Shown here: one piece after another, positions 7,623 to 53,665 of the stretch
Layout of the letters: the number at the start of each line of letters is the position of its first letter
Numbering within the stretch: position 1 is the first letter of the stretch
Origin: a virus
DNA length: 54,406 nt
Virus record (IMG/VR): IMGVR_UViG_3300028592_000014
Location: 1 to 54,406 of that record
Direction: 5' to 3' (one strand)
Translations under genes and position numbers: made by a program
Notes under the pieces: generated by a model
The model's database searches: none
What the model was told of the DNA's origin: nothing
The model's input: only the letters and a program-made list of their open reading frames with translations

Positions 7623-9389
7623 TTACCTCGTCGGTTGGTTAAATGCATTCCACAGCCCGAGCCCTGCCATCGCCCCGCCGAGCACGTTGCCCGTCTGGTT
7701 CTGGTAAAGCGGCTGGCTCTGCGTATTCGAGTTGTTCAGCCCCGTGTATTGGGACAACAAACCGCTTACATCCTTCAGGTTCCCCATCGAATACTGATCC
7801 TGTTGTTGCCCGATTCCATACGCTTGCCCCAGCAGCCCATTGGACAGACCTATGCCGGCAATCTGGTTCTGACTGTTGAGCCGGTTCGTATCAGCCTGCA
7901 GTTGCGCGTTCGTGATCGCGGTTTGATACTGCTGCCCGCCGAGCCCTGTCATCGCGGACAGTGCGCGGTTGCGGTCGGCGTCGTACGCACCGGCCTGTGC
8001 TGATACGGCCGCATCGGTGTTGTTCTGGCCGAACTGTGTCGCCGCCCTGGTCAAGTTGCTGGACAGGTCAGACAGTGCCCGGCCTTCCGCGATGCCCTGC
8101 CGGTTGCCTCCGAGGGTGTTGTTCATCACCGCGCCACCACGGATGTTCCCGAGAAGGTCCGTGGTCGCCTTCGTCGCATCCGTCATGTAGTTGCCGAATG
8201 CGTTCGTGGACTGGTTAATGCCCTTCTGGATCGCGCCTGTCAGATAGGGGTTTGCGCCGGCCTGACCGTAAATCATGTCCTGATAGGCAGGCGAGAGATT
8301 GAGATTGTTCTGACTCGGTGCGTTGACCTGGGGCGCGCTGATGTTGCTGCCCTGCAGCCCCTGCGCGGCCTGCTGATTTTTGCGGAACGTGTCCGGTCCC
8401 CAATCGTTCAGGTAGTCATCGATATTGGCGCCGAAGTTCGCCATACCCGGCGCTTGCTGCTTTCCGGACTGTGCCATGATCTGATTCAGGATTCCACCCT
8501 GCCCATAAACGTATGGGTCCATGCGCGGGTCCATCTTATTCTGACTTGTGGACGTGAGATTGTCCGGACCGCTGCTGCTGCCGCCGAGCAGGCCGCCAAG
8601 TAGGGCGCTGCCGCCCTTGCTGGTTGCGAAGTCGAGCGCCTTGCCCCACATGTCGCCGCCAGAGCCAAATAAACTATCCAAACCAAACATAGAACCTCCT
8701 GTTGTTCCAAGTCCTGCAGTTGTTGCGCCTGCCAATCCAGTGCCAAGCGCACCACCGCCGCCAGCCGTTCCCATAAGGGAGCCGACACCCGCCGTTGTCG
8801 CGCCATAGGTGCCGCTGCCCAAAGTGCCAAGGCCGCCCGCTGACGTTGCCCATGGCGCTGCTGTACCTGTTGCGGTCATGCCGCCAGCAGGAAGCGCGGC
8901 GAACCCTCCGGCGCCCTCTGCCGCCCCTGCCGCTGCTCCTGCGCCTGCACTACCTGCGCCCATAGCCGCAGCACCGCCAAACATCGCCATCAGCGCCGGC
9001 ACAACGACCGGCAATTTCCCGCCGATCTTGTCCGTCAGCCCATTGTGAAAAATGGACTGCTTTTGTGTCGTGCCGTCTTTCGATATTTCGGTGTAGTTCT
9101 GGCCGCTGCTGCCGGGGTTGTACATCCCGGTACTGCCGTTTCGGTTTTCAAACTGGTTGAAGGTCTGCCGCGTGGGGTCGAACTGAAAGCGGCCAGCGCC
9201 CGGAATGTCGTAGGTGCGGTAGGTAGTTTGGTTACTGTTGAGAAGGCCGCTTAGAGGTCCGTACTCATTGGCGCCGTAACCATATACGCCGCCTTGCGAC
9301 GATAAGCCGCCCTCGTCCGTGTAGAACCGATCTTCAAGCGACTTGTTGGAGCCAATGTAGTTCAGCAGATCGTCGTAACTCAGTGCCAT
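7623..9389 (-). CDS. Putative injection / internal virion protein, Gly-Ala rich (588 aa)
   Basis: A 588-residue protein with a very Gly/Ala-rich hydrophobic stretch (about residues 130-260) between a compact N-terminal part (SYDDLLNYIGSNKSLEDRF) and a Gln/Asn-rich helical C-terminal half (DLSSNLTRAATQFGQNN). Such composition is typical of proteins ejected with DNA that form a channel across the envelope. AAGGAA lies six bases before the start. First of three such genes in order of transcription. Confidence 0.55.
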   Translation of the reverse strand: MALSYDDLLNYIGSNKSLEDRFYTDEGGLSSQGGVYGYGANEYGPLSGLLNSNQTTYRTYDIPGAGRFQFDPTRQTFNQFENRNGSTGMYNPGSSGQNYTEISKDGTTQKQSIFHNGLTDKIGGKLPVVVPALMAMFGGAAAMGAGSAGAGAAAGAAEGAGGFAALPAGGMTATGTAAPWATSAGGLGTLGSGTYGATTAGVGSLMGTAGGGGALGTGLAGATTAGLGTTGGSMFGLDSLFGSGGDMWGKALDFATSKGGSALLGGLLGGSSSGPDNLTSTSQNKMDPRMDPYVYGQGGILNQIMAQSGKQQAPGMANFGANIDDYLNDWGPDTFRKNQQAAQGLQGSNISAPQVNAPSQNNLNLSPAYQDMIYGQAGANPYLTGAIQKGINQSTNAFGNYMTDATKATTDLLGNIRGGAVMNNTLGGNRQGIAEGRALSDLSSNLTRAATQFGQNNTDAAVSAQAGAYDADRNRALSAMTGLGGQQYQTAITNAQLQADTNRLNSQNQIAGIGLSNGLLGQAYGIGQQQDQYSMGNLKDVSGLLSQYTGLNNSNTQSQPLYQNQTGNVLGGAMAGLGLWNAFNQPTR

Positions 9390-9398
9390 GTCGATTCC

Positions 9399-9647
9399 TT
9401 ATGCGATGAATACCCAGGCGTTATCCCTGCGGTGGTACAGGCCGCGCCCACTTCCCGGATTCCAATCTGTGCCGTCTGCATAGACAGCCATCCCGTTACG
9501 TGGCTTCTTCGGCTCTACGTGCAGCTCGCGCAGCCACATGAACGACTGCTGACCGCTCAACACCTCTTGCAGCCGCTGCAGTTCGGCCAATAAAAAAGCC
9601 GGCAAATTCGCCGGCTCCTGGGGAACAATCCCTGCTTGATAGTCCAT
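9399..9647 (-). CDS. Small hypothetical virion-associated protein
   Basis: An 82-residue protein (MDYQAGIVPQEPANLPAFLL; later AVYADGTDWNPGSGRGLY). Its start overlaps the stop of the gp10-like gene by ATGA, so translation is coupled; longer upstream frames lie inside that gene and are rejected. The C-terminal segment (Y-A-D-G-x-x-W-N-P-G-x-G-x-G-x-Y) resembles short beta-rich pieces found in phage tail proteins. Function unknown; position suggests a structural or chaperone role. Confidence 0.7.
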   Translation of the reverse strand: MDYQAGIVPQEPANLPAFLLAELQRLQEVLSGQQSFMWLRELHVEPKKPRNGMAVYADGTDWNPGSGRGLYHRRDNAWVFIA

Positions 9648-11197
9648 CACCACATCCCTGTTTTCTGATACTCCAATAGATAGCTTTTCAGCCGCCATGT
9701 GGCTTGCTGCACCGTCTCGAACTTGATAGCGATGTACCGCCACTCTTCCGTTACATCCACTTTCGTGTCGGTTCCGATTACGAAATTGCGCGGCGTGCTC
9801 CATGTCACCGGCTTGCCGATGTCGTTATAACCGCCCACATACACACGCACTACATTGCCCGCCGCTCCTTCGATGCGCGGATAGACTGCGGAAACCAATT
9901 TGAAGTATTGAGGGTCGCCCAGGTCGAGACCAGTCCGCGCAACATAGGATTGAAAGTTCGTCTCATCGAACAGGCGCGAAGCATCAGCCAAGTAGAGCTT
10001 TCTCGCTGCGCTGGCGATCACCATGCGCTGTGATGCCTGGGTGTACTCGTTGTAATCGAACGGGTCGGTGTAACTGTCGAAGGGGTCAAGGCGCGAATCG
10101 AAGGAGTTCGTCACGATTGTGTCGATCACGCCGGAAGCCGCGTAATGGGCGCGGGGGAGATCGCGAATCGTCCAAACGTTATCTTTGTAATTCCACACCA
10201 GGGCGACATTCGGAACGCTCGCACCAAGGCGCGGGATGCATACCCACACCTCGTTCCGTGTTGGGTTCGTCGCCAGAAAAGAGCGGTCGTAATTGCTCGC
10301 ATCCATCGACGTTTGCAGCCAGCGGCGCATTTTCTGGTTAAGGATGCTTTCGATCCTCGATCCAGTATTCAGGAAAACATCCCCTTGGCCGAGCACGGCA
10401 TGCCCGAGGTCGAAGCGCGCAATACAGTTCACCGCCAGCGCCCCGGCCTGCTCGGAAATCGGTTCTGAGAACGCCCATATATCATTCCCGCCGACGTAGC
10501 TCATGCGGTAGATGGACGATTCCTTGTATAGATAGAAATGGTCGCCGATGGAAGCGCCATCGACCAAGCGCCCCTCTGTTTTCGACAGGTCTTGCACGAC
10601 GACATCTTTTGTTGCGTCCGCCGTGTCCCACGATGCAGGCACGGTTCCAGGCTCAGCAGGATGAGAAACCAGCACTCGATGCGGCTTATCGACGCCGGAT
10701 TCGATCAGGTTCATCGCCACCAAACTGAACTTGTGCTTGCGCATTGCCTTGCATCGCAGGCCATTCGTCCAATCTGGAAGATTGACGGCCCGGCCAGTCC
10801 CTGCCCATACCTGCGGCACGTCGACGCCATTGTTCAGAACGGCGACGCCGCCGATGTCCGTTCCCGTCCAGACATTTCCCGGCGTGGCCGAGTAATCCAC
10901 ATCGACACCGCCAGTTTGCCGCGTGATATTGGAATGGGTGTCGACCGAAACCGCGTACATCTTTTGAGCGCCGGCATAAATCCAGTTGCGCGCACCGGCC
11001 ATGCTGTACGGCAGGAGGAAATAAGGCTCGATTGGCGGTGCACCATAGATGACCTGATGTCCCCGCATGCGCTCGACGTAGCCATCGGCAAAGCGTACGT
11101 TCTTGCCGTCGCTCCATGCATTGGGCGGCAACTCATGCGGGGCGGCGTCACGAATGATGCCGATCGTTCCCAAGCCATCGACGGGGTAGGTAGCCAT
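9647..11197 (-). CDS. Tail accessory / head-closure protein, P22 gp10-like
   Basis: A 516-residue all-beta protein that looks like a propeller, with repeated blade-like segments (VALVWNYKDNVWTIRDLP; SSIYRMSYVGGNDIWAFSE; FVARFDLG-type strands). The N-terminus (GTIGIIRDAAPHELPPNAWS) matches the style of podovirus tail/stabilisation proteins of the gp10 class. The start is ATG 11197, overlapping the fibre stop as TAATG; the open frame up to 11374 is only read-back into the fibre gene. It should help seal the head and form the tail hub. Family by style and position. Confidence 0.7.
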   Translation of the reverse strand: MATYPVDGLGTIGIIRDAAPHELPPNAWSDGKNVRFADGYVERMRGHQVIYGAPPIEPYFLLPYSMAGARNWIYAGAQKMYAVSVDTHSNITRQTGGVDVDYSATPGNVWTGTDIGGVAVLNNGVDVPQVWAGTGRAVNLPDWTNGLRCKAMRKHKFSLVAMNLIESGVDKPHRVLVSHPAEPGTVPASWDTADATKDVVVQDLSKTEGRLVDGASIGDHFYLYKESSIYRMSYVGGNDIWAFSEPISEQAGALAVNCIARFDLGHAVLGQGDVFLNTGSRIESILNQKMRRWLQTSMDASNYDRSFLATNPTRNEVWVCIPRLGASVPNVALVWNYKDNVWTIRDLPRAHYAASGVIDTIVTNSFDSRLDPFDSYTDPFDYNEYTQASQRMVIASAARKLYLADASRLFDETNFQSYVARTGLDLGDPQYFKLVSAVYPRIEGAAGNVVRVYVGGYNDIGKPVTWSTPRNFVIGTDTKVDVTEEWRYIAIKFETVQQATWRLKSYLLEYQKTGMW

Positions 11198-13560
11198 TAC
11201 TGCGCAATCTCCACGTTCACAACCCGTAACTGCGGGGTAGTGGGGCCAACTGTTGTGCCGTAGGTGCTGCCGAGTAGGATCACGCGATTTCCGACGATTG
11301 CAGGCGGAAAGCCTGCCGGCGTCATATTTGGAACAGGGATGGTTCCGCGCACGCTTGCCGCGTCGCCACTGCAACGGATCACCGGCAATCCATAGCCGCG
11401 AGTACCGGGGTTCACCACATAGTCACCGCCCGGCAAGCGCGCCGCCATCCCGGTGCCGCCGCTCGTGATGGATGTCGCCATCGATGTGCCAAGCAGACGC
11501 GGGGAAGACGATCCGTAAGTAACGGCCGTTCCGCTAATCTTGTGCGGGATTGCCTTTAGCGACAGCGAAGACGATGTGCCTTCCTGCTGCACCGCAAGGA
11601 ATTCGGTGGTGCCTTGCGCCGCCACCATGCCCAAGCCATCACCGGACGAGGCCGAAGAAAAACTGTTGAACAGGATGCCCCCCGGAGTCAACACACCGCT
11701 GCTTTCGCTCAGGACGACAGCGCGGGAAATGCCGTTCTCGCCCGCATACCAGAGCAGGGCGGTATTAGCCGACAGCGGGAACAGGTGCGGATTGTGGCGG
11801 GTGGCGAGCGAGTCCGAGTAATCGAGGATTGGTTCTGCCGTGGCTTCAAGTTGAATATTCGTCCCCCACGTCACCGTCGTGCTTGCAATCGTAATTGCCA
11901 CGGCATTGGGGCCGGATTCATTCTCTGGCATGCCAGCCACAAGCACCTTTGTCGCGGACAACCGGCACGATGATTTCGGGCCTGATGTTCCATAATCAGA
12001 TGACAATCCCGATGCGGCAGGCGTCCCGATAGTGCAAGTCGTTCCGGCCACACTTACAACGACAGCATTCACCTGGTACGGGCTTGATGCCCCACTGTTG
12101 TAGATCACCAGGGCCGTGGAAGCCGTCAGCGGGTAGGTGGCCGTGCTTCCGGCAACGCTGTTTGACGTGATGATGTTGGCGGCAGTGCCGATCGTAATCG
12201 TCGCCCCGCTCACCGATAGCGCGATTGCCTTGGTGTTCGTGGAATTGATATAGCTGGCAACGTACAGCGAGCCGGTCAGTTGCGCGATTTTGGGCGAACC
12301 CTTGAAGTCTTCCCCACCCCATGCGGCTGCGATGGTGTCAGTCGTGGCAACAGGCGTGCCCACCGCGAGCGAGAACGCCCCAGCAGAGCCGGAAAGCGTC
12401 AGGACAACAGCCTTGCTTGTCGCGGAATTCTGACCATAAAAACAGATCGCGTGCGTGGCATCGACCTTGAACGCCTGGACGGGAACATCTCCGCTGGTCG
12501 AACTGACCGTGACTGGCGTCGTTACCGCCTTCCCTGTGTTGTCCACGACGAATGCAGCAAACCCGCTCGAACGCTTTGCGAAGTGGATCGATGTGTTGTC
12601 ATCCAGCGCGACATAAGACGCCAAGGCATCGCCCGAATACGTGCTGCTCAGTGTGGTGTCGATCGTGGTCGAACCCGGCTGCAGGTTCGTTCCCTCGATG
12701 CGCCACTTGCCGGCAGCGGTCGAATTGTCCTGCAGGTAGACGTGGGCGATGCCACCAGGAGCAACGCAGTTCTTACCGACAAGTGCGCCGGTGGAGTCGC
12801 GCCAGCCGACCGCGTAACCTCCCTCTGTGTTGTCGATGATTGCGAGCAAGCCCAGTGCTGTGGACGTCGTGACAATCGGGGCGGTCAGGCATTTGCCCGC
12901 TGCAGTCGTGGCGCACGGCCAGATTTTTGGGACAAAATCCGTCAGCGTCAGGTTGTCGGTTACGGTCGCGCCGAGAACCGAGACGTTCGCATATTCCCAA
13001 CTTGGCTGATTGCCGTTTGTCTTGAGAAACTTCCCCGCTTGGCCGGTCTGATCCGCCTCCCATGACGCTACCGTGCCGTTCGTGACCAGGATTTTGCGCC
13101 CGGATTGCGCAGGCAGCGCCGAACTGAATGCCAGTTGATCGATATAGTTTTTCGTGGCGTAAACCAAGCGGTATTCGGTGCCGGTATCGACCATTAAGAC
13201 CGGACAGCCGGCGATGATGTCACCATAGGCCAGCGCAGCACCGGAAACACTCTTGACAGCACGCGCACCGAGATTGGAAATGTTCATCGTGCAAGCGCCG
13301 GTATTCGTGCTCGACGGCAACCATAAGACGCCTGTACTCGCGCCATAAGCTGGAAGCGGCTCAGACGGATTCAGCGCGTAGGCGTTTTCCGTTCCTTGAT
13401 CGATGCCGCCAACCAGGACAGAGCCAGTAAAGCCGGGAAACGCCTTTTTCTGGACATCCTTGAGCAGCCGGATAAAGTCATCCGCCTCATATGCCGGGTC
13501 GGATCCATCCGGCAAATTCTGGTCGAGTCCGCTGATATAGTAAGTTTGCTCAACTGGCAT
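11197..13560 (-). CDS. Tail fibre / tailspike with beta-propeller-like repeats (787 aa)
   Basis: A 787-residue protein. The N-terminus (EQTYYISGLDQNLPDGSDPA) resembles particle-binding ends of phage fibres. From about residue 260 to 740 it has roughly seven units of about 50-60 residues that alternate 'T-A-L-V/I-x-Y/F' and 'V-A-V/I-T-I-x-x-T-T-V-x-x-G' strands, suggesting a propeller receptor-binding head. No pectate-lyase or sialidase motif is evident. It is encoded directly upstream of the gp10-like gene. Likely the host-receptor protein. Confidence 0.7.
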   Translation of the reverse strand: MPVEQTYYISGLDQNLPDGSDPAYEADDFIRLLKDVQKKAFPGFTGSVLVGGIDQGTENAYALNPSEPLPAYGASTGVLWLPSSTNTGACTMNISNLGARAVKSVSGAALAYGDIIAGCPVLMVDTGTEYRLVYATKNYIDQLAFSSALPAQSGRKILVTNGTVASWEADQTGQAGKFLKTNGNQPSWEYANVSVLGATVTDNLTLTDFVPKIWPCATTAAGKCLTAPIVTTSTALGLLAIIDNTEGGYAVGWRDSTGALVGKNCVAPGGIAHVYLQDNSTAAGKWRIEGTNLQPGSTTIDTTLSSTYSGDALASYVALDDNTSIHFAKRSSGFAAFVVDNTGKAVTTPVTVSSTSGDVPVQAFKVDATHAICFYGQNSATSKAVVLTLSGSAGAFSLAVGTPVATTDTIAAAWGGEDFKGSPKIAQLTGSLYVASYINSTNTKAIALSVSGATITIGTAANIITSNSVAGSTATYPLTASTALVIYNSGASSPYQVNAVVVSVAGTTCTIGTPAASGLSSDYGTSGPKSSCRLSATKVLVAGMPENESGPNAVAITIASTTVTWGTNIQLEATAEPILDYSDSLATRHNPHLFPLSANTALLWYAGENGISRAVVLSESSGVLTPGGILFNSFSSASSGDGLGMVAAQGTTEFLAVQQEGTSSSLSLKAIPHKISGTAVTYGSSSPRLLGTSMATSITSGGTGMAARLPGGDYVVNPGTRGYGLPVIRCSGDAASVRGTIPVPNMTPAGFPPAIVGNRVILLGSTYGTTVGPTTPQLRVVNVEIAQ

Positions 13561-41113: not shown

Positions 41114-41424
41114 AGCCGAAAATCTACTGCTTTTCAGATACGCCAGACGGCGGCGACGGGATTGCCATTGCAATGGCTGAGGATGGAACAATCCTTGGCT
41201 CTCACTTGTGCAGCCACGAAGGTTACGTGCCTCATGATCTAGGAGTAACCCCGGGCTCTCGACCAGATCGCCACGAGACCTATGCGGAGCACTATCCAGA
41301 CGGCTACGAAATGGAGTTTGTGCCAGCCGATGAAGTGGATTCGCACGACGGATTGAAGCTTGCATTCGAGCGCAACAAAGCCGCCGCACCCTCCCAATCA
41401 GATAGCGGGGGCAATCATGGATGA
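41110..41424 (+). CDS. Ead-type protein, full-length paralogue of the gene at 3-239
   Basis: A 104-residue protein (MKPKIYCFSDTPDGGDGIAI) followed by the region shared almost exactly with the window's first gene. The sequence has the form of phage proteins that start with a two-strand beta unit. Coupled by ATGA. Role unknown. Confidence 0.75.
   Translation: MKPKIYCFSDTPDGGDGIAIAMAEDGTILGSHLCSHEGYVPHDLGVTPGSRPDRHETYAEHYPDGYEMEFVPADEVDSHDGLKLAFERNKAAAPSQSDSGGNHG
41189..41419 (+). repeat. Copy B of the 230-bp duplication (copy A at 1-231)
   Basis: About 97 percent identical to the window start, counted by eye. Identity ends at the ATG of the next gene in both copies, after which the two loci carry unrelated sequence. 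Confidence 0.9.
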
Positions 41425-47017: not shown

Positions 47018-47070
47018 CAGCAGATATTTTGATGGAAATTGCGTGTACACTTGGCAAGTTAACAATTACG

Positions 47071-47109
47071 TACTATTACTTACCAACAATTTCCTACTAT
47101 CACTTACCA
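47071..47109 (+). repeat. Tandem 15-bp repeat before the ATP-grasp gene
   Basis: TACTATTACTTACCA (47071-47085) and TACTATCACTTACCA (47095-47109) lie 24 bases apart in an AT-rich leader. The second copy touches the ATG. They may be regulatory sites. No clear sigma70 promoter was found here. Confidence 0.6.
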
Positions 47110-48197
47110 TGCAATCCAAAATATCCAAGCTCGCAACATTGATGAAATACGCCTCACTCGCTAAGGCGAAAACGGGCAAGTCTCACGTCGCCCAATTTAT
47201 GGAGCTGCGGCGTTTCTTTGCTGGCGAGCACAAGCTGGGCATGGAGGAGTATTACGAGCTTGAAATGTTCGATGACCGAGCGTATCAGGGGCTTTCGACT
47301 GCGGATTGCATTGGATGGCGGACGAGTGCCGCTTTGGACAAGAAACTGAATCAAGCTTATTGGCGAGCGATTGCGAACGACAAGCTGCTTAACTACGCCC
47401 TTCTTCAGCACTACGGTTTCAATATCCCCGAGACGGTCGCTATCTTCTCACCTGATGGACGGCGCATTGGCAGCGAAACATGTTTACGAACCGAGGATGA
47501 GCTAAGGGAATTTGTCGCTACCTCACTTCGATATCCGATCTTTGCAAAGCCGGTGAGCGCGGCATTCGGTCGCGGCACTTACCTGTTGACAGGTTTTGAT
47601 TCGGCATCCTCAAGATTCACCGACGTGCATGGGAATCGTGTGCCGTTCGCTGAATTCTTGAAAGACTGCACCAACCGCTTTCATAACGGGATGTTATTCC
47701 AGAAGTGCCTGCAGCCGCACCCCGACGTTCGAGCAATGACCGGGCCGATGACTAGCTGCGTGCGCGTCATTCTGCTGGTGCACAACAATCGACCACAAGT
47801 GCATATGGCATTTTGGAAGATCGCCCGCGCCCACAACATCACCGACAACTTTTGCATGGGTGAAACGGGCAACCTGTTGGCCTGGGTGGATAAAGACAGT
47901 GGCAGAATTGACCGCGTGATTACAGGACTTTGGCCGGATGGCGTAGAGGTGGCAACGCATCCAGACACGCGCCAGACATTGAAGGGGAAGGTGCTGCCGG
48001 ATTGGGGAAAGGCAGTGGAGATGTGCTGCGCTGCAGCCATCAATTTCCCAGGCTTGCGGCTGCAAAACTGGGATGTGGCATTCTGCGAACAGGGGCCAGT
48101 GTTGATGGAGTTGAATACCGAATCCGATCTTGCCATTCCTCAATATCTTGGGCGAACACCGTTTATCAATGACTCGATCCGGGCGGCACTGGCGTGA
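47109..48197 (+). CDS. Sugar-transfer-associated ATP-grasp protein (phage cargo)
   Basis: A 362-residue protein of the ATPgrasp_ST type. Landmarks: NDKLLNYALLQHYGFNIPET (about 90-109), the lysine and loop IFAKPVSAAFGRGT (144-157), TSCVRVILLVHNN (about 215-227), WDVAFCEQGPVLMELN (321-336) with the metal-binding Asp322/Glu334/Asn336, and a C-terminal helix. This family occurs in surface polysaccharide and capsule loci and probably ligates a carboxylate to an amine. ATG 47109 is chosen; the frame from GTG 47043 adds an unlikely AT-rich start. It is the only gene of its kind here and is convergent with Rz, so likely a lysogenic conversion gene. Confidence 0.8.
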   Translation: MQSKISKLATLMKYASLAKAKTGKSHVAQFMELRRFFAGEHKLGMEEYYELEMFDDRAYQGLSTADCIGWRTSAALDKKLNQAYWRAIANDKLLNYALLQHYGFNIPETVAIFSPDGRRIGSETCLRTEDELREFVATSLRYPIFAKPVSAAFGRGTYLLTGFDSASSRFTDVHGNRVPFAEFLKDCTNRFHNGMLFQKCLQPHPDVRAMTGPMTSCVRVILLVHNNRPQVHMAFWKIARAHNITDNFCMGETGNLLAWVDKDSGRIDRVITGLWPDGVEVATHPDTRQTLKGKVLPDWGKAVEMCCAAAINFPGLRLQNWDVAFCEQGPVLMELNTESDLAIPQYLGRTPFINDSIRAALA

Positions 48198-49788: not shown

Positions 49789-49813
49789 TAAAAAAACCCG
49801 CTCAAGGCGGGTT
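49789..49813 (-). terminator. Rho-independent terminator between the TPR-SGNH gene and the lysis cluster
   Basis: Stem AACCCGC/GCGGGTT (49795-49801 with 49807-49813, loop five) with a T run on the minus strand. It closely resembles the terminator before the holin in prophage 1 (3956-3977). Confidence 0.85.
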
Positions 49814-49838: not shown

Positions 49839-51176
49839 CTAACTGGCGCGTATGTAATGATTTTTGAATGCTTCTGCGATAGCGCCTGGCCGCAAATGTG
49901 TTTCTTCCAGATGCCAGAGCTTGTTTGATATTCCATCGCCGCGATCCGTCATCCGGTACACGTCGAGGAAGTCTAGGCCAGCGGCGAGCGCATGAGCTTT
50001 CAGGCGTTCATTGAACTGCCTGATGACAGAAACAAGCTGCGCCGCTTTATCTGCTTCCAGTGACGACAAATCCCAATTCGTTGCCGGAACGCCGCAGATG
50101 ATCACTTTGAAGTCGCGTTCTGTCGTCTGGCTCGCAACGTAATCTATATAGCCGGAAACAGTCCGTTCAATGATGCCCTCTACCGTGCCGCCCTTGGTGT
50201 GCAATACCTTGATGACCCCCTCATCTGGACGACAATCGATTTCGCCAACGGTCAGCAGGATCGATGACCCATTCGGCAAGGAACGGAGAATTGATTCGAA
50301 CTGCGGTTTGAAGCGATTCCTATCCTCCGATCGCAAATGCCATTGCTTACAACCAAGTATCCAACTGCTGCGGCAACGCATCGCCTTCCCATCAATGGTA
50401 ATAAGGGTGTTATGTGGCGAAAGGGAATGGCTCTCGCCAATAACATGCAGCGCTTCGCTTTGCTCATTCGTAGACGCCGGGGAAAAAGCGATAAGGGATG
50501 CCAAATAGCGAAAATAATTATGTAGCTTGGTGGAGCCTATCACCTGCGAGTTTTGATATACGTCGATGATGGCTTGAGTCTCTCGAATATCGCCGCGCAA
50601 AAAGCGCAATACTGCAAGAAATGCGGCTGAATCAGCAACCCAAGCGTCAAGCGGATTACCCAAAATTCTGGTGAAGCAGTCTATCGCGCCGCTCATGTCG
50701 CCGGACGAATACAGTGCGCTACCGAGATTATGGGCAACGCCGCTGTCGTTCGTCCGTATCTCTAGCGTTTTCTTGTAATACACAATGGCCTGATCTATTT
50801 CTCCGACTGTGTACGAGATAGTGGCCAAATTGTTATACGGCGCATAATAGGCTGGATCGCAGGCAATGGCCTGCTGATAACACTTGATGGCTTGGTCATG
50901 CATCTTTTGGCTGAGGAAGACATTCCCAAGATTTTTATGCGCCTCTGCAAAATCTGGCTTTGCCGATATCGCCCTGTTTAGATACATAGACGCCATCTCA
51001 CGCTGGTCTTCACGGAGGGATATCATCCCCAGCAAATTCAATGCGCCCGGCTGTTCTGATCTGACCCCAATGATCTGCAAACAAAATGACTTCGACGCCG
51101 CCAATCTTCCGGCCTGGTAGTGCTCTTTGGCTATATCAATTGCTTGGTCAATCGTAAGCGTTACGTCCTGCCCCAT
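49839..51176 (-). CDS. TPR-SGNH-like putative esterase (phage cargo or tail-linked)
   Basis: A 445-residue protein in two halves. Residues about 10-170 contain five TPR-type repeats (AHKNLGNVFLSQKMHDQAIK; YNNLATISYTVGEIDQAIVY; AHNLGSALYSSGDMSGAIDC). Residues about 240-440 look like an SGNH/GDSL hydrolase: GESHS (247-251, Ser249), GEIDCR (311-316) and EETHLRP (424-430, His427). Asn of the usual third block is Asp314, and block one has GES for GDS. No signal peptide. ATG 51176 has GGGAG seven bases upstream. It might add or remove acyl groups on surface polysaccharide, or on the phage fibre target. Confidence 0.7.
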   Translation of the reverse strand: MGQDVTLTIDQAIDIAKEHYQAGRLAASKSFCLQIIGVRSEQPGALNLLGMISLREDQREMASMYLNRAISAKPDFAEAHKNLGNVFLSQKMHDQAIKCYQQAIACDPAYYAPYNNLATISYTVGEIDQAIVYYKKTLEIRTNDSGVAHNLGSALYSSGDMSGAIDCFTRILGNPLDAWVADSAAFLAVLRFLRGDIRETQAIIDVYQNSQVIGSTKLHNYFRYLASLIAFSPASTNEQSEALHVIGESHSLSPHNTLITIDGKAMRCRSSWILGCKQWHLRSEDRNRFKPQFESILRSLPNGSSILLTVGEIDCRPDEGVIKVLHTKGGTVEGIIERTVSGYIDYVASQTTERDFKVIICGVPATNWDLSSLEADKAAQLVSVIRQFNERLKAHALAAGLDFLDVYRMTDRGDGISNKLWHLEETHLRPGAIAEAFKNHYIRAS

Positions 51177-51225
51177 CCCAACTCTCCCGCGCATTGTTTT
51201 GCGGGATTATATGCCGGAAATTGAC

Positions 51226-51789
51226 CTATTCCGGCCAACCTGATGTCGGATCAATCGCGCTCAGCTCTTCGAGAGTTTCCGTGCCGTCCAATTGGTCCTC
51301 TAAGCGCTGGCGGTAACCAATCATCCTGCCGCAATACACCTCAAATGGCTCAACCTTTGCCATGATGCGGGCAGCCATTTCTGCCTTACTCAACCCGCGC
51401 TCCGTTGCCAGCATATCAAGCAGCGGCGTCACCGCCACAGAATTGGCTAAATATGCTCGCGCTTGCTCCTCCTGCTTGGTGAAAGTTTGCTGCTCCCGCT
51501 CTGGATAGCTCGCCACAAACAACGACATGCGACGATCACATTCTGCATTTGCAGTTTTCAGCTTACTTTCTTTTGCTAGGCTCAACGCCAACGAATTTGC
51601 AGCAGACAAAAGATCCTCATCAACCACTAAAGAACTTCCTTCGCGTCGCATCGCCCCGAGGATAACTGAAGGCAACGGGCCATCGACGCGCTCATCCCAA
51701 AGCACCCTACTCGGCTCAAAATACTGGCCGCCCGGTCCAACTGCGATGATTTCTTGTGTACCCACTGGGGTGTTTACCAAAAGCTTCAT
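51226..51789 (-). CDS. Putative tail fibre assembly / fibre-associated protein
   Basis: A 187-residue protein: a beta start (TPVGTQEIIAVGPGGQYFEP) then helices (EREQQTFTKQEEQARAYLAN; TPLLDMLATERGLSKAEMAA). The helical block with TFxxQExEARAY is typical of proteins after phage fibre genes (DUF4376 type). Overlaps the fibre gene by four bases. Confidence 0.7.
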   Translation of the reverse strand: MKLLVNTPVGTQEIIAVGPGGQYFEPSRVLWDERVDGPLPSVILGAMRREGSSLVVDEDLLSAANSLALSLAKESKLKTANAECDRRMSLFVASYPEREQQTFTKQEEQARAYLANSVAVTPLLDMLATERGLSKAEMAARIMAKVEPFEVYCGRMIGYRQRLEDQLDGTETLEELSAIDPTSGWPE

Positions 51790-52766
51790 ACAAATCCAAC
51801 CTTTCTGATGGCGAAGATGTTCCGATTGGTTGTGCCAGTGGTGCCGCCACTGCCACTCGTATGCGCCCGAATAACATCGCCCGCGCTGAGCATTACCGTT
51901 CGACTAACAACGGCTCGGCCTGTTGATCCAGCATTCCCTACTTGCGTCGAAAGCATAAGCCTGTTTGCCACAGTGATATTAGCGACAGCCGTTGTCAGTT
52001 CTGAGCTATTTACAGAAACACCAATGATGTTATCGACCGGCCCCTCATCAGAGTAATGAATTGCATACAAGCCAGTATCATTGATCGTAAAACTCGCGCC
52101 GTTCGCCGCACTATCCGCATAGGTAATCGCAGTGCCGACATTAACCATTGCAGTTGTAAATCTTCGAATCACCGTATTGGTTGACCCATAGCCGTTTCCT
52201 GTATGGACAACAACCTCATGATTTCCGACTGCCGCCACTGGGCCGGTGTCACCCTTATCACCATTTCGCGTGAACAACAGAAGAATCGAATCCCCATTCA
52301 CAAATGGACTTGTATCGCTTGAGCCCACATTCGTGACCGCCAAATTCCGGTACCCGGAAGGCACTGACAGGGCGGCTGCATTGAACGCAAGCCACTTCGT
52401 TCCATCACTCACTTTGACGAGCCGAACTTGTCCTTTCACATCGCTTGTCGAGTCGTCGAAGGTATCGAGAACATTGGTCCAGGTCTTGCCATCAGCGCCG
52501 GTTAGATCAAAGCGCATGGTTGTAGCCGCGTTCTGCGTGGCGTTATTCAAGCGCAGCATACCCGCGCCAGGATCGGAATCTGTCGTAGTGGTCGAGAACG
52601 TGTACGGGATCGCAAACGCAGTACCGGCAGCAATGGCAGTCATCGCAGCGGCTAGTTCATTCGCCTCTACGCCAAATTGAGGAATGAGACTTCCGAAGTA
52701 CGTATCAACATCAGTTTTAAACGAGCCGGACGTTCTGTCCAGCGGGGGTAATGGTGTAATTGACAT
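51786..52766 (-). CDS. Tail fibre with C1q/TNF-like C-terminus
   Basis: A 326-residue fibre. The N-terminal part (PLDRTSGSFKTDVDTYFGSL) and VKVSDGTKWLAFNAAALSVP are standard fibre segments. A short collagen-like GDKGDTGP (about 171-178) precedes a C-terminal jelly roll (SFTINDTGLYAIHYSDEG; MLSAGDVIRAHTSGSGGTTG), like trimeric C1q/TNF heads. It should bind the host surface. Confidence 0.75.
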   Translation of the reverse strand: MSITPLPPLDRTSGSFKTDVDTYFGSLIPQFGVEANELAAAMTAIAAGTAFAIPYTFSTTTTDSDPGAGMLRLNNATQNAATTMRFDLTGADGKTWTNVLDTFDDSTSDVKGQVRLVKVSDGTKWLAFNAAALSVPSGYRNLAVTNVGSSDTSPFVNGDSILLLFTRNGDKGDTGPVAAVGNHEVVVHTGNGYGSTNTVIRRFTTAMVNVGTAITYADSAANGASFTINDTGLYAIHYSDEGPVDNIIGVSVNSSELTTAVANITVANRLMLSTQVGNAGSTGRAVVSRTVMLSAGDVIRAHTSGSGGTTGTTNRNIFAIRKVGFV

Positions 52767-53665
52767 TAGATGAGGCCCTCAACTTCCAGTGAGCAAAGAT
52801 GATGCGCAGGGTATGCAACATCGATTGAAAAATCCTTGAAGAATCCGTAGACGATCAAGGGCTCATAGCCTTGATACTCGGTTCCGATATAAACAGCAGG
52901 CGTGGCACGAAGCGCAACCAAGGTTCGATAGATTTTGTTGAACCGATATTTTTCGGTAATGACCTCGAACGTTCCCTTCTTGCTGTAGGCCCGCTGGACA
53001 ATGATCGTATTGCCCCACTGGTCTCGGTCCTTTTTGCTGTAATCGACGATACCGACACGCGCCCCGTATTGAGTTCCGCCGATGTCGATTACCATCCCCG
53101 GCTTGCATACGCCACAGGCCGCATCGCCACTTGTGGCAGTAATCGTGATCGTCAATTCGCAGCCTGTGAACTGCCCTGGCAGGTCCGTCAATACGGCATC
53201 GGTGCGCTGTTCGAATTCGCTGAAAAACCAGTCGTAGATGCTTTCAATGATCGTGCCGTCGAGGTCGATAGTCCGGTCATACACCACCGTCCCGCCGGGT
53301 CCGTCTTTCATCGTCGCCTGCACCTGCCTTCCCATCAGTTCAAGCAGAGCAAGGCCGGTAACGCTTCCCGGCTCCAGAACCACAGTAAGCGGAGAATCGT
53401 GGGTGGTGACGGTTCCAACTACATCATCAAACATCGCCCAACGGTTTGTCGGGCCGATGTCGAGCCAGTTTGTCGAATCGCTTTCCGGTGGCGTTGTGCC
53501 TGCCCCAGCAGTGAGGCGTTCATAGATGCGATGCGTTTCGACCCTGATTCTCTTATCTCCGATTACATACGTAGTGCCGGATACCCACACTGCATGGTCA
53601 TCCTCTGCAACCGTGCTTGAAACCAGCATTGCATCAGTGATGACTGTCGGCTTAATTACCTTCAT
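52766..53665 (-). CDS. Tail tip / distal tail protein (putative)
   Basis: A 299-residue protein. The first part VIGDKRIRVETHRIYERLTA with TPPESDSTNWLDIGPTNRWA looks like a small carbohydrate-binding module found on tail tip proteins. The rest is beta-rich (AVYIGTEYQGYEPLIVYGFF). It lies between the tape measure and the fibre. Function by position. Confidence 0.6.
   Translation of the reverse strand: MKVIKPTVITDAMLVSSTVAEDDHAVWVSGTTYVIGDKRIRVETHRIYERLTAGAGTTPPESDSTNWLDIGPTNRWAMFDDVVGTVTTHDSPLTVVLEPGSVTGLALLELMGRQVQATMKDGPGGTVVYDRTIDLDGTIIESIYDWFFSEFEQRTDAVLTDLPGQFTGCELTITITATSGDAACGVCKPGMVIDIGGTQYGARVGIVDYSKKDRDQWGNTIIVQRAYSKKGTFEVITEKYRFNKIYRTLVALRATPAVYIGTEYQGYEPLIVYGFFKDFSIDVAYPAHHLCSLEVEGLI

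Follow-up and report, generated by a model that had tools for sequence, protein, structure and literature searches.

The window analysed here is a whole stretch of 54,406 nucleotides of an IMG/VR virus record, in which an open reading frame of 451 aa on the minus strand (49839-51194) encodes a protein that joins an array of TPRs to a domain of predicted SGNH fold, referred to below as TPR-SGNH. A Shine-Dalgarno-like stretch (GGGAGA) is found by eye 6 nt 5' of the ATG at 51176, and none is seen before the ATG at 51194, so the former is the better start and the gene is likely translated from it into a product of 445 aa, which backs the end points given in a preliminary description of this DNA. 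The residue numbers used here are those of the 451-aa frame, and exceed those of that description by six.

On the minus strand, the gene order runs from a putative tail fibre (51786-52766), through a gene of the tail-fibre-associated family phrog_2618 (51226-51789; PHROG E 9.4e-22), which adjoins TPR-SGNH upstream, to the TPR-SGNH gene itself, followed immediately 3' by a terminator-like (intrinsic) hairpin and T run (49795-49813, minus strand), and then by the lysis genes, the first of which encodes a phage lysozyme (48902-49528, minus strand; Pfam Phage_lysozyme E 2.1e-12). The putative tail fibre has an N-terminus in common with the gene found in the same place in related phages, is free of cysteine, and contains 22% Ser+Thr. 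An ATP-grasp gene (PF14397, Pfam E 1.4e-33) is found on the plus strand, at 47043-48197. A promoter scan recovered no standalone promoter at the TPR-SGNH gene, and a TATAAT at 51211-51206, upstream of the gene, is without a -35 box. In a composition check for recent capture, the GC content of the gene is 50.4% vs. 53-54% in its neighbours, with a similar GC3.

In related phages, the slot that separates the fibre genes from the lysis genes is taken up by unrelated cargo, including an NlpC/YiiX-like gene, recognized by eye, in the contig L004, and a FliA/WhiG-like sigma factor (10485-11255; E 5e-54, 183 bits against a curated cut-off of 189.6) in L028, which was found in none of the other related phage loci. 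The TPR-SGNH gene is absent from 80 related phage loci, some of whose contigs stop before the site, and is best read as cargo (a moron), missing from relatives at the same position. As the related phages hold other cargo here, the slot looks like a cargo site, and proximity to the fibre gene says little about the target of the enzyme. The gene at 52766-53665 is 98% identical in a contig from another metagenome (L003), which ends before the fibre gene. At the other end of the window, the first prophage has a serine recombinase gene at 305-1882, and most of this prophage is flanked by a 231-bp direct repeat (1-231 and 41189-41419, 97% identity), which may be an assembly effect, or may mean that one of the two prophages has integrated within an early gene belonging to the other.

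Architecture and predicted active site

The N-terminal half of the protein (50667-51155, minus strand) is a TPR superhelix of five to six repeats (Pfam TPR_1 E 9.8e-24), which forms paired helices in the AlphaFold2 model and is the only part of the protein matched in the PHROGs. This half matches the TPR arms of the OGT and SPINDLY structures, and is predicted to be a substrate-binding arm. The full-length model, based on an alignment of 14 sequences, has a mean pLDDT of 90.5 and a pTM of 0.87, and a helical linker (50484-50645, minus strand; model helices 183-236) connects the arm to the C-terminal domain.

The C-terminal domain (approximately residues 245-451; 49842-50462, minus strand) has no above-threshold match by sequence in Pfam, PHROG, or the PDB, and the family Lipase_GDSL_2 remains below threshold, with an E-value of 0.016 for the domain alone (16.1 vs. 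32.9 bits) and 0.057 for the whole protein. The AlphaFold2 model of the domain by itself reaches a pLDDT of 94.7 and a pTM of 0.91 (17 sequences), and its best Foldseek matches in the PDB are SGNH/GDSL esterases, which dominate the best 50. These matches include the sialate O-acetylesterase 7pzh (E 2.1e-7), 7ddy (VIA Z 14.5 over 169 residues, 3.5 A), and PatB 8tlb (Z 13.3), and sialate, xylan, and other carbohydrate esterases are found among the fold neighbours. An SGNH/GDSL esterase fold is thus confidently predicted for this domain. The fusion of a TPR array to an SGNH-fold domain, proposed originally from the sequence, is borne out by the Pfam TPRs and by the model, and the structure prediction suggested at that time has returned the fold anticipated.

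In canonical SGNH hydrolases, block III reads GxND and block V reads DxxH. Eleven residues are invariant in all 36 sequences (Ser255, His256, Gly281, Gly317, Glu318, Ile319, Asp320, Arg322, Gly326, Asn395, and His433). Block I is represented by GESHS, with Ser255 (50430-50432), conserved in 36/36 sequences, as the expected nucleophile, and His433 (49896-49898), also conserved in 36/36, is the expected base. The position of the acid in block V, which has the form E430-x-x-H433 in the phage copy, is occupied by Asp in 34 of the 36 sequences and by Glu in the other two, and Glu430 (49905-49907) is probably the acid of the triad. A profile alignment places the D..HL of the family against the D..HL of the sialate O-acetylesterase 6njc, at a weak E of 0.11. 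Block II, placed by motif order only, corresponds to G281 in a GxKxxHL motif (36/36). Block III reads GEIDCR, with an Ile (36/36), again by motif order, at the position of the oxyanion-hole Asn of GxND, so a canonical catalysis is less certain, and membership of the SGNH superfamily rests on the structure. Catalysis is likely, although not of the canonical kind. The GESH, GEID, and HL blocks noted in the preliminary description are therefore real, with residues that are invariant in the family, and two members of the triad proposed there (Ser249 and His427, now Ser255 and His433) fall in the expected SGNH blocks, whereas the third, Asp314 (now Asp320, 50235-50237), belongs to block III, where it follows the strand, is conserved in 36/36 sequences, and is not the expected acid; this role would fall to residue 424 of the earlier numbering, that is, Glu430.

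The closest structural counterparts, the sialate O-acetylesterases (7pzh and 6njc) and the PatB O-acetyltransferases (8tlb and 7tjb), share with this domain the fold, the Ser of block I, and the acid-x-x-His order of block V, but have only about 10-17% identity with it, and TPR-SGNH differs in its GEID in place of GxND, its TPR fusion, and the absence of a visible signal peptide. The SGNH fold is also found in phage proteins, such as the BFVD matches from Pseudomonas phage KPP21 and Pectobacterium phage PP99, and in tailspikes, although several of these are parts of virion proteins, whereas TPR-SGNH has a TPR arm and belongs to a bacterial family by sequence. Inspection by eye reveals no signal peptide in the protein, and a SEC-C motif, which was not seen in the phage copy, precedes the TPRs in four close betaproteobacterial relatives; these features would fit a cytoplasmic enzyme that works before the export of its substrate.

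Distribution of the family and the neighbours of its bacterial members

All of the 36 relatives found are proteobacterial, and the TPRs are recognized by Pfam in 35 of the 37 family copies. A scan of a collection covering 84,980 species of bacteria and archaea yielded 16 loci, also exclusively proteobacterial, of which the closest are from Gallionellaceae (49%) and Rhodoferax (48%). The distribution of the family is sporadic, and searches by group recovered it in 1 of the 300 genomes of the order of the Rhodoferax genome, 4/117 genomes of the genus of Shewanella frigidimarina, 5/158 of the family of the Gallionellaceae genome, and 19/136 of the order to which the SAR116 genome belongs. In a tree of 36 rows, the phage copy is nested among the betaproteobacterial members (support 93/93); this tree does not include the locus L090, displaced during the ORF calling by a longer antisense ORF.

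No convincing relative was recovered from 50,697 phage records or 72,556 plasmids, and four peptide-pattern scans of IMG/VR returned a single match, L146 (2526-5452). As the scans of IMG/VR and of the bacterial and archaeal collection were based on exact peptide patterns, diverged relatives may have been missed. The L146 copy, which is split by an insertion element, has a giant Ser/Thr-rich protein on one side and a methyltransferase-like gene on the other, next to prophage-like genes. It is located in what appears to be the bacterial flank of a prophage, and was rejected as a phage-borne relative. The matches to the "tail tube" of Brevundimonas phages run on the strand opposite to the gene annotated there, and were judged to be due to chance. 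Those on Azospirillum and other plasmids mainly involve the TPRs; the C-terminal domain alone finds none. The initial impression that this is an unusual protein for a phage is upheld by these searches.

The neighbours of the relatives were called by custom ORF picking, with the flagellins being labelled by phmmer and Pfam, and the other genes by Pfam or by eye. A flagellin gene is found no more than one ORF away in 10 of the 36 loci, and directly adjoins TPR-SGNH in eight of these, while a gene with a flagellin domain lies within 6 kb in 11/36 loci, against 0.6 expected from the per-genome flagellin counts (Poisson p about 5e-11, treating the loci as independent). SAR116 contributes nine of the 11 flagellin-adjacent loci, and when this group is set aside, two remain, against 0.19 expected (p = 0.017). 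Flagellin is encoded in 32 of the 35 carrier genomes (raw count). The flagellin/FliD-adjacent label undergoes seven changes on the tree, at least five of which are forced by well-supported branches, so the link to the filament was formed or lost repeatedly, a pattern that speaks against a single inherited accident. The label is no more clustered on the tree than shuffled labels.

Other neighbours point in the same direction, including the FliD-like genes that adjoin two of the loci, and five further loci situated in or near flagellar clusters, as recognized partly by eye. Giant surface proteins are found beside another four relatives, being homologous Ser/Thr-rich proteins in two cases (34% identity, E 1e-37), a DUF4214 protein in the third, and an autotransporter in the fourth. 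In the clade of the phage copy itself, the loci adjoin FliD, giant surface proteins, or neither. In three SAR116 loci, a TPR-methyltransferase, TPR-2OG-Fe(II) oxygenase, or TPR-glycosyltransferase 41 is encoded beside TPR-SGNH, and these TPR-tethered modifying enzymes may form a toolkit.

Candidate function and alternative explanations

The TPR part of FlmG, in Caulobacter crescentus, is both required and sufficient for the binding of flagellin, while the C-terminal domain glycosylates the flagellins (eLife 2020, PMC7591256), and this protein is the best-described example of such a layout found here. The TPR-SGNH protein has a comparable layout, with an N-terminal TPR arm and a C-terminal enzyme domain, and the gene linkage suggests that it may also meet flagellin in the cytoplasm, although it is not an FlmG, given that the catalytic domain of the latter is a GT-B glycosyltransferase, rather than an SGNH fold. 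A TPR superhelix also precedes the catalytic domain in the O-GlcNAc transferase/SPINDLY (GT41) enzymes, whose genes, in TPR form, adjoin some of the relatives, but their catalytic domain is unrelated to the SGNH domain. By analogy, the family seems to belong to the same kind of toolkit as FlmG, with the removal or transfer of an acyl group in place of the transfer of a sugar. No paper linking TPR, SGNH, and flagellin was found in the literature searched. While FlmG is a known case of the delivery of a glycosyltransferase by TPRs, the linkage described here suggests that acyl editing may also be directed by such an arm.

The fact that the bacterial relatives adjoin genes of filament and surface-layer proteins indicates that the enzyme most likely edits the decorations of these proteins. 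The reading tentatively preferred here, at somewhat less than an even chance, is that of a cytoplasmic enzyme captured by a phage, which edits acyl groups on the flagellin or S-layer glycoprotein of the host. A temperate phage would have acquired the gene as cargo from a betaproteobacterial host, in which the bacterial members would serve flagellins and S-layer-like proteins. In the cytoplasm, the TPR arm would grip a filament or surface protein that is still unfolded or has yet to be secreted, and the SGNH domain, by means of Ser255, His433, and probably Glu430, would remove or transfer an O-acyl group carried by a glycan or side chain of this protein. The most likely target of the phage copy in the lysogen would be the flagellin or S-layer glycoprotein of the host, and the altered surface may benefit the lysogen, for example, against rival phages.

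This preferred reading draws on the repeated linkage to filament genes, the invariant Ser and His, the precedent of FlmG, the well-supported nesting of the phage copy, and the FliA/WhiG-like gene found in the same slot in L028. The points against it are the Glu of block V, the GEID of block III, the bias toward SAR116, the mixed neighbours in the clade of the phage copy, the lack of a standalone promoter, and the presence of the neighbouring tail fibre as an equally available substrate.

The main rival is that the same enzyme, when carried by the phage, modifies the fibre of the phage itself late in infection, in keeping with the habit of the family of adjoining its presumed substrate. TPR-SGNH is the second gene after that of the fibre, on the late strand, with the terminator next, and the fibre, being Ser/Thr-rich and free of Cys, resembles the flagellins and surface proteins found beside the relatives. 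The decoration of virions has a possible precedent in the mycobacteriophages, for which phage-encoded glycosyltransferases thought to play this role are reported (PMC11256854). However, no phage glycosyltransferase was seen near TPR-SGNH, and the position beside the fibre may simply mark an insertion site, as the L004 and L028 slots hold unrelated cargo. Host flagellin or S-layer protein is rated the more likely target, with the fibre next. In either case, a phage-borne copy would, if confirmed, give a prophage a new means of changing the flagellum or surface of its host, or its own fibre. A bolder scenario, and a rather improbable one, is that TPR-SGNH constitutes a dedicated class of cytoplasmic acyl editors of flagellins and S-layer proteins, forming a toolkit with the TPR-GT41, TPR-oxygenase, and TPR-methyltransferase proteins, and that this phage has redirected a TPR-SGNH enzyme to the editing of its own fibre.

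The protein may instead be a general GDSL esterase that acts on polysaccharide or small esters and uses its TPR arm for scaffolding, as might be suggested by the carbohydrate esterases among its fold neighbours and by the glycosyltransferase or polysaccharide deacetylase genes found near some relatives. This explanation is improbable, and leaves unexplained why the relatives are so often linked to flagellin, FliD, and giant surface proteins. It is more doubtful still that the SGNH domain is a degenerate, non-catalytic module for binding or decoy, as the Glu in place of Asp in block V and the non-canonical block III might imply. Against this, none of the 36 members varies in the Ser, the His, or block III, and there are other Ser hydrolases in which the acid is a Glu.

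The least probable alternative, by a reading of the locus as a pair of opposing activities, is that the product of the ATP-grasp gene adds a group to a surface polymer and TPR-SGNH removes one from it. The two genes are no more than 3 kb apart in the same prophage, and PF14397 is a sugar-transfer associated ATP-grasp family. However, they are on opposite strands, with lysis genes between them, no PF14397 match was seen at any TPR-SGNH locus, and no relative of the prophage ATP-grasp was found in the viral contigs searched. PF14397 is above the cut-off in 5 of 16 TPR-SGNH genomes, in comparison with 14/100 controls of the Rhodoferax order (Fisher p = 0.14). At E < 1e-20, the counts are 5/16 vs. 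7/100 (p = 0.012), with three of the five being gammaproteobacteria, and 2/9 (p = 0.16) in the betaproteobacteria only. The joint action of the two genes on the same surface polymer, as originally envisaged, is thus not supported, and what survives of that proposal is the link to the cell surface, recast here in terms of a surface filament protein by the flagellin, FliD, and giant surface-protein neighbours. An ATP-grasp-like reading of the middle region (8465-9937) of the Simplicispira relative (L092) was also set aside, as this region has no Pfam match and no ATP-grasp match by sequence in the PDB; in this protein, about 490 aa of ATP-grasp-like appearance, as judged by eye, separate the TPR and SGNH parts.
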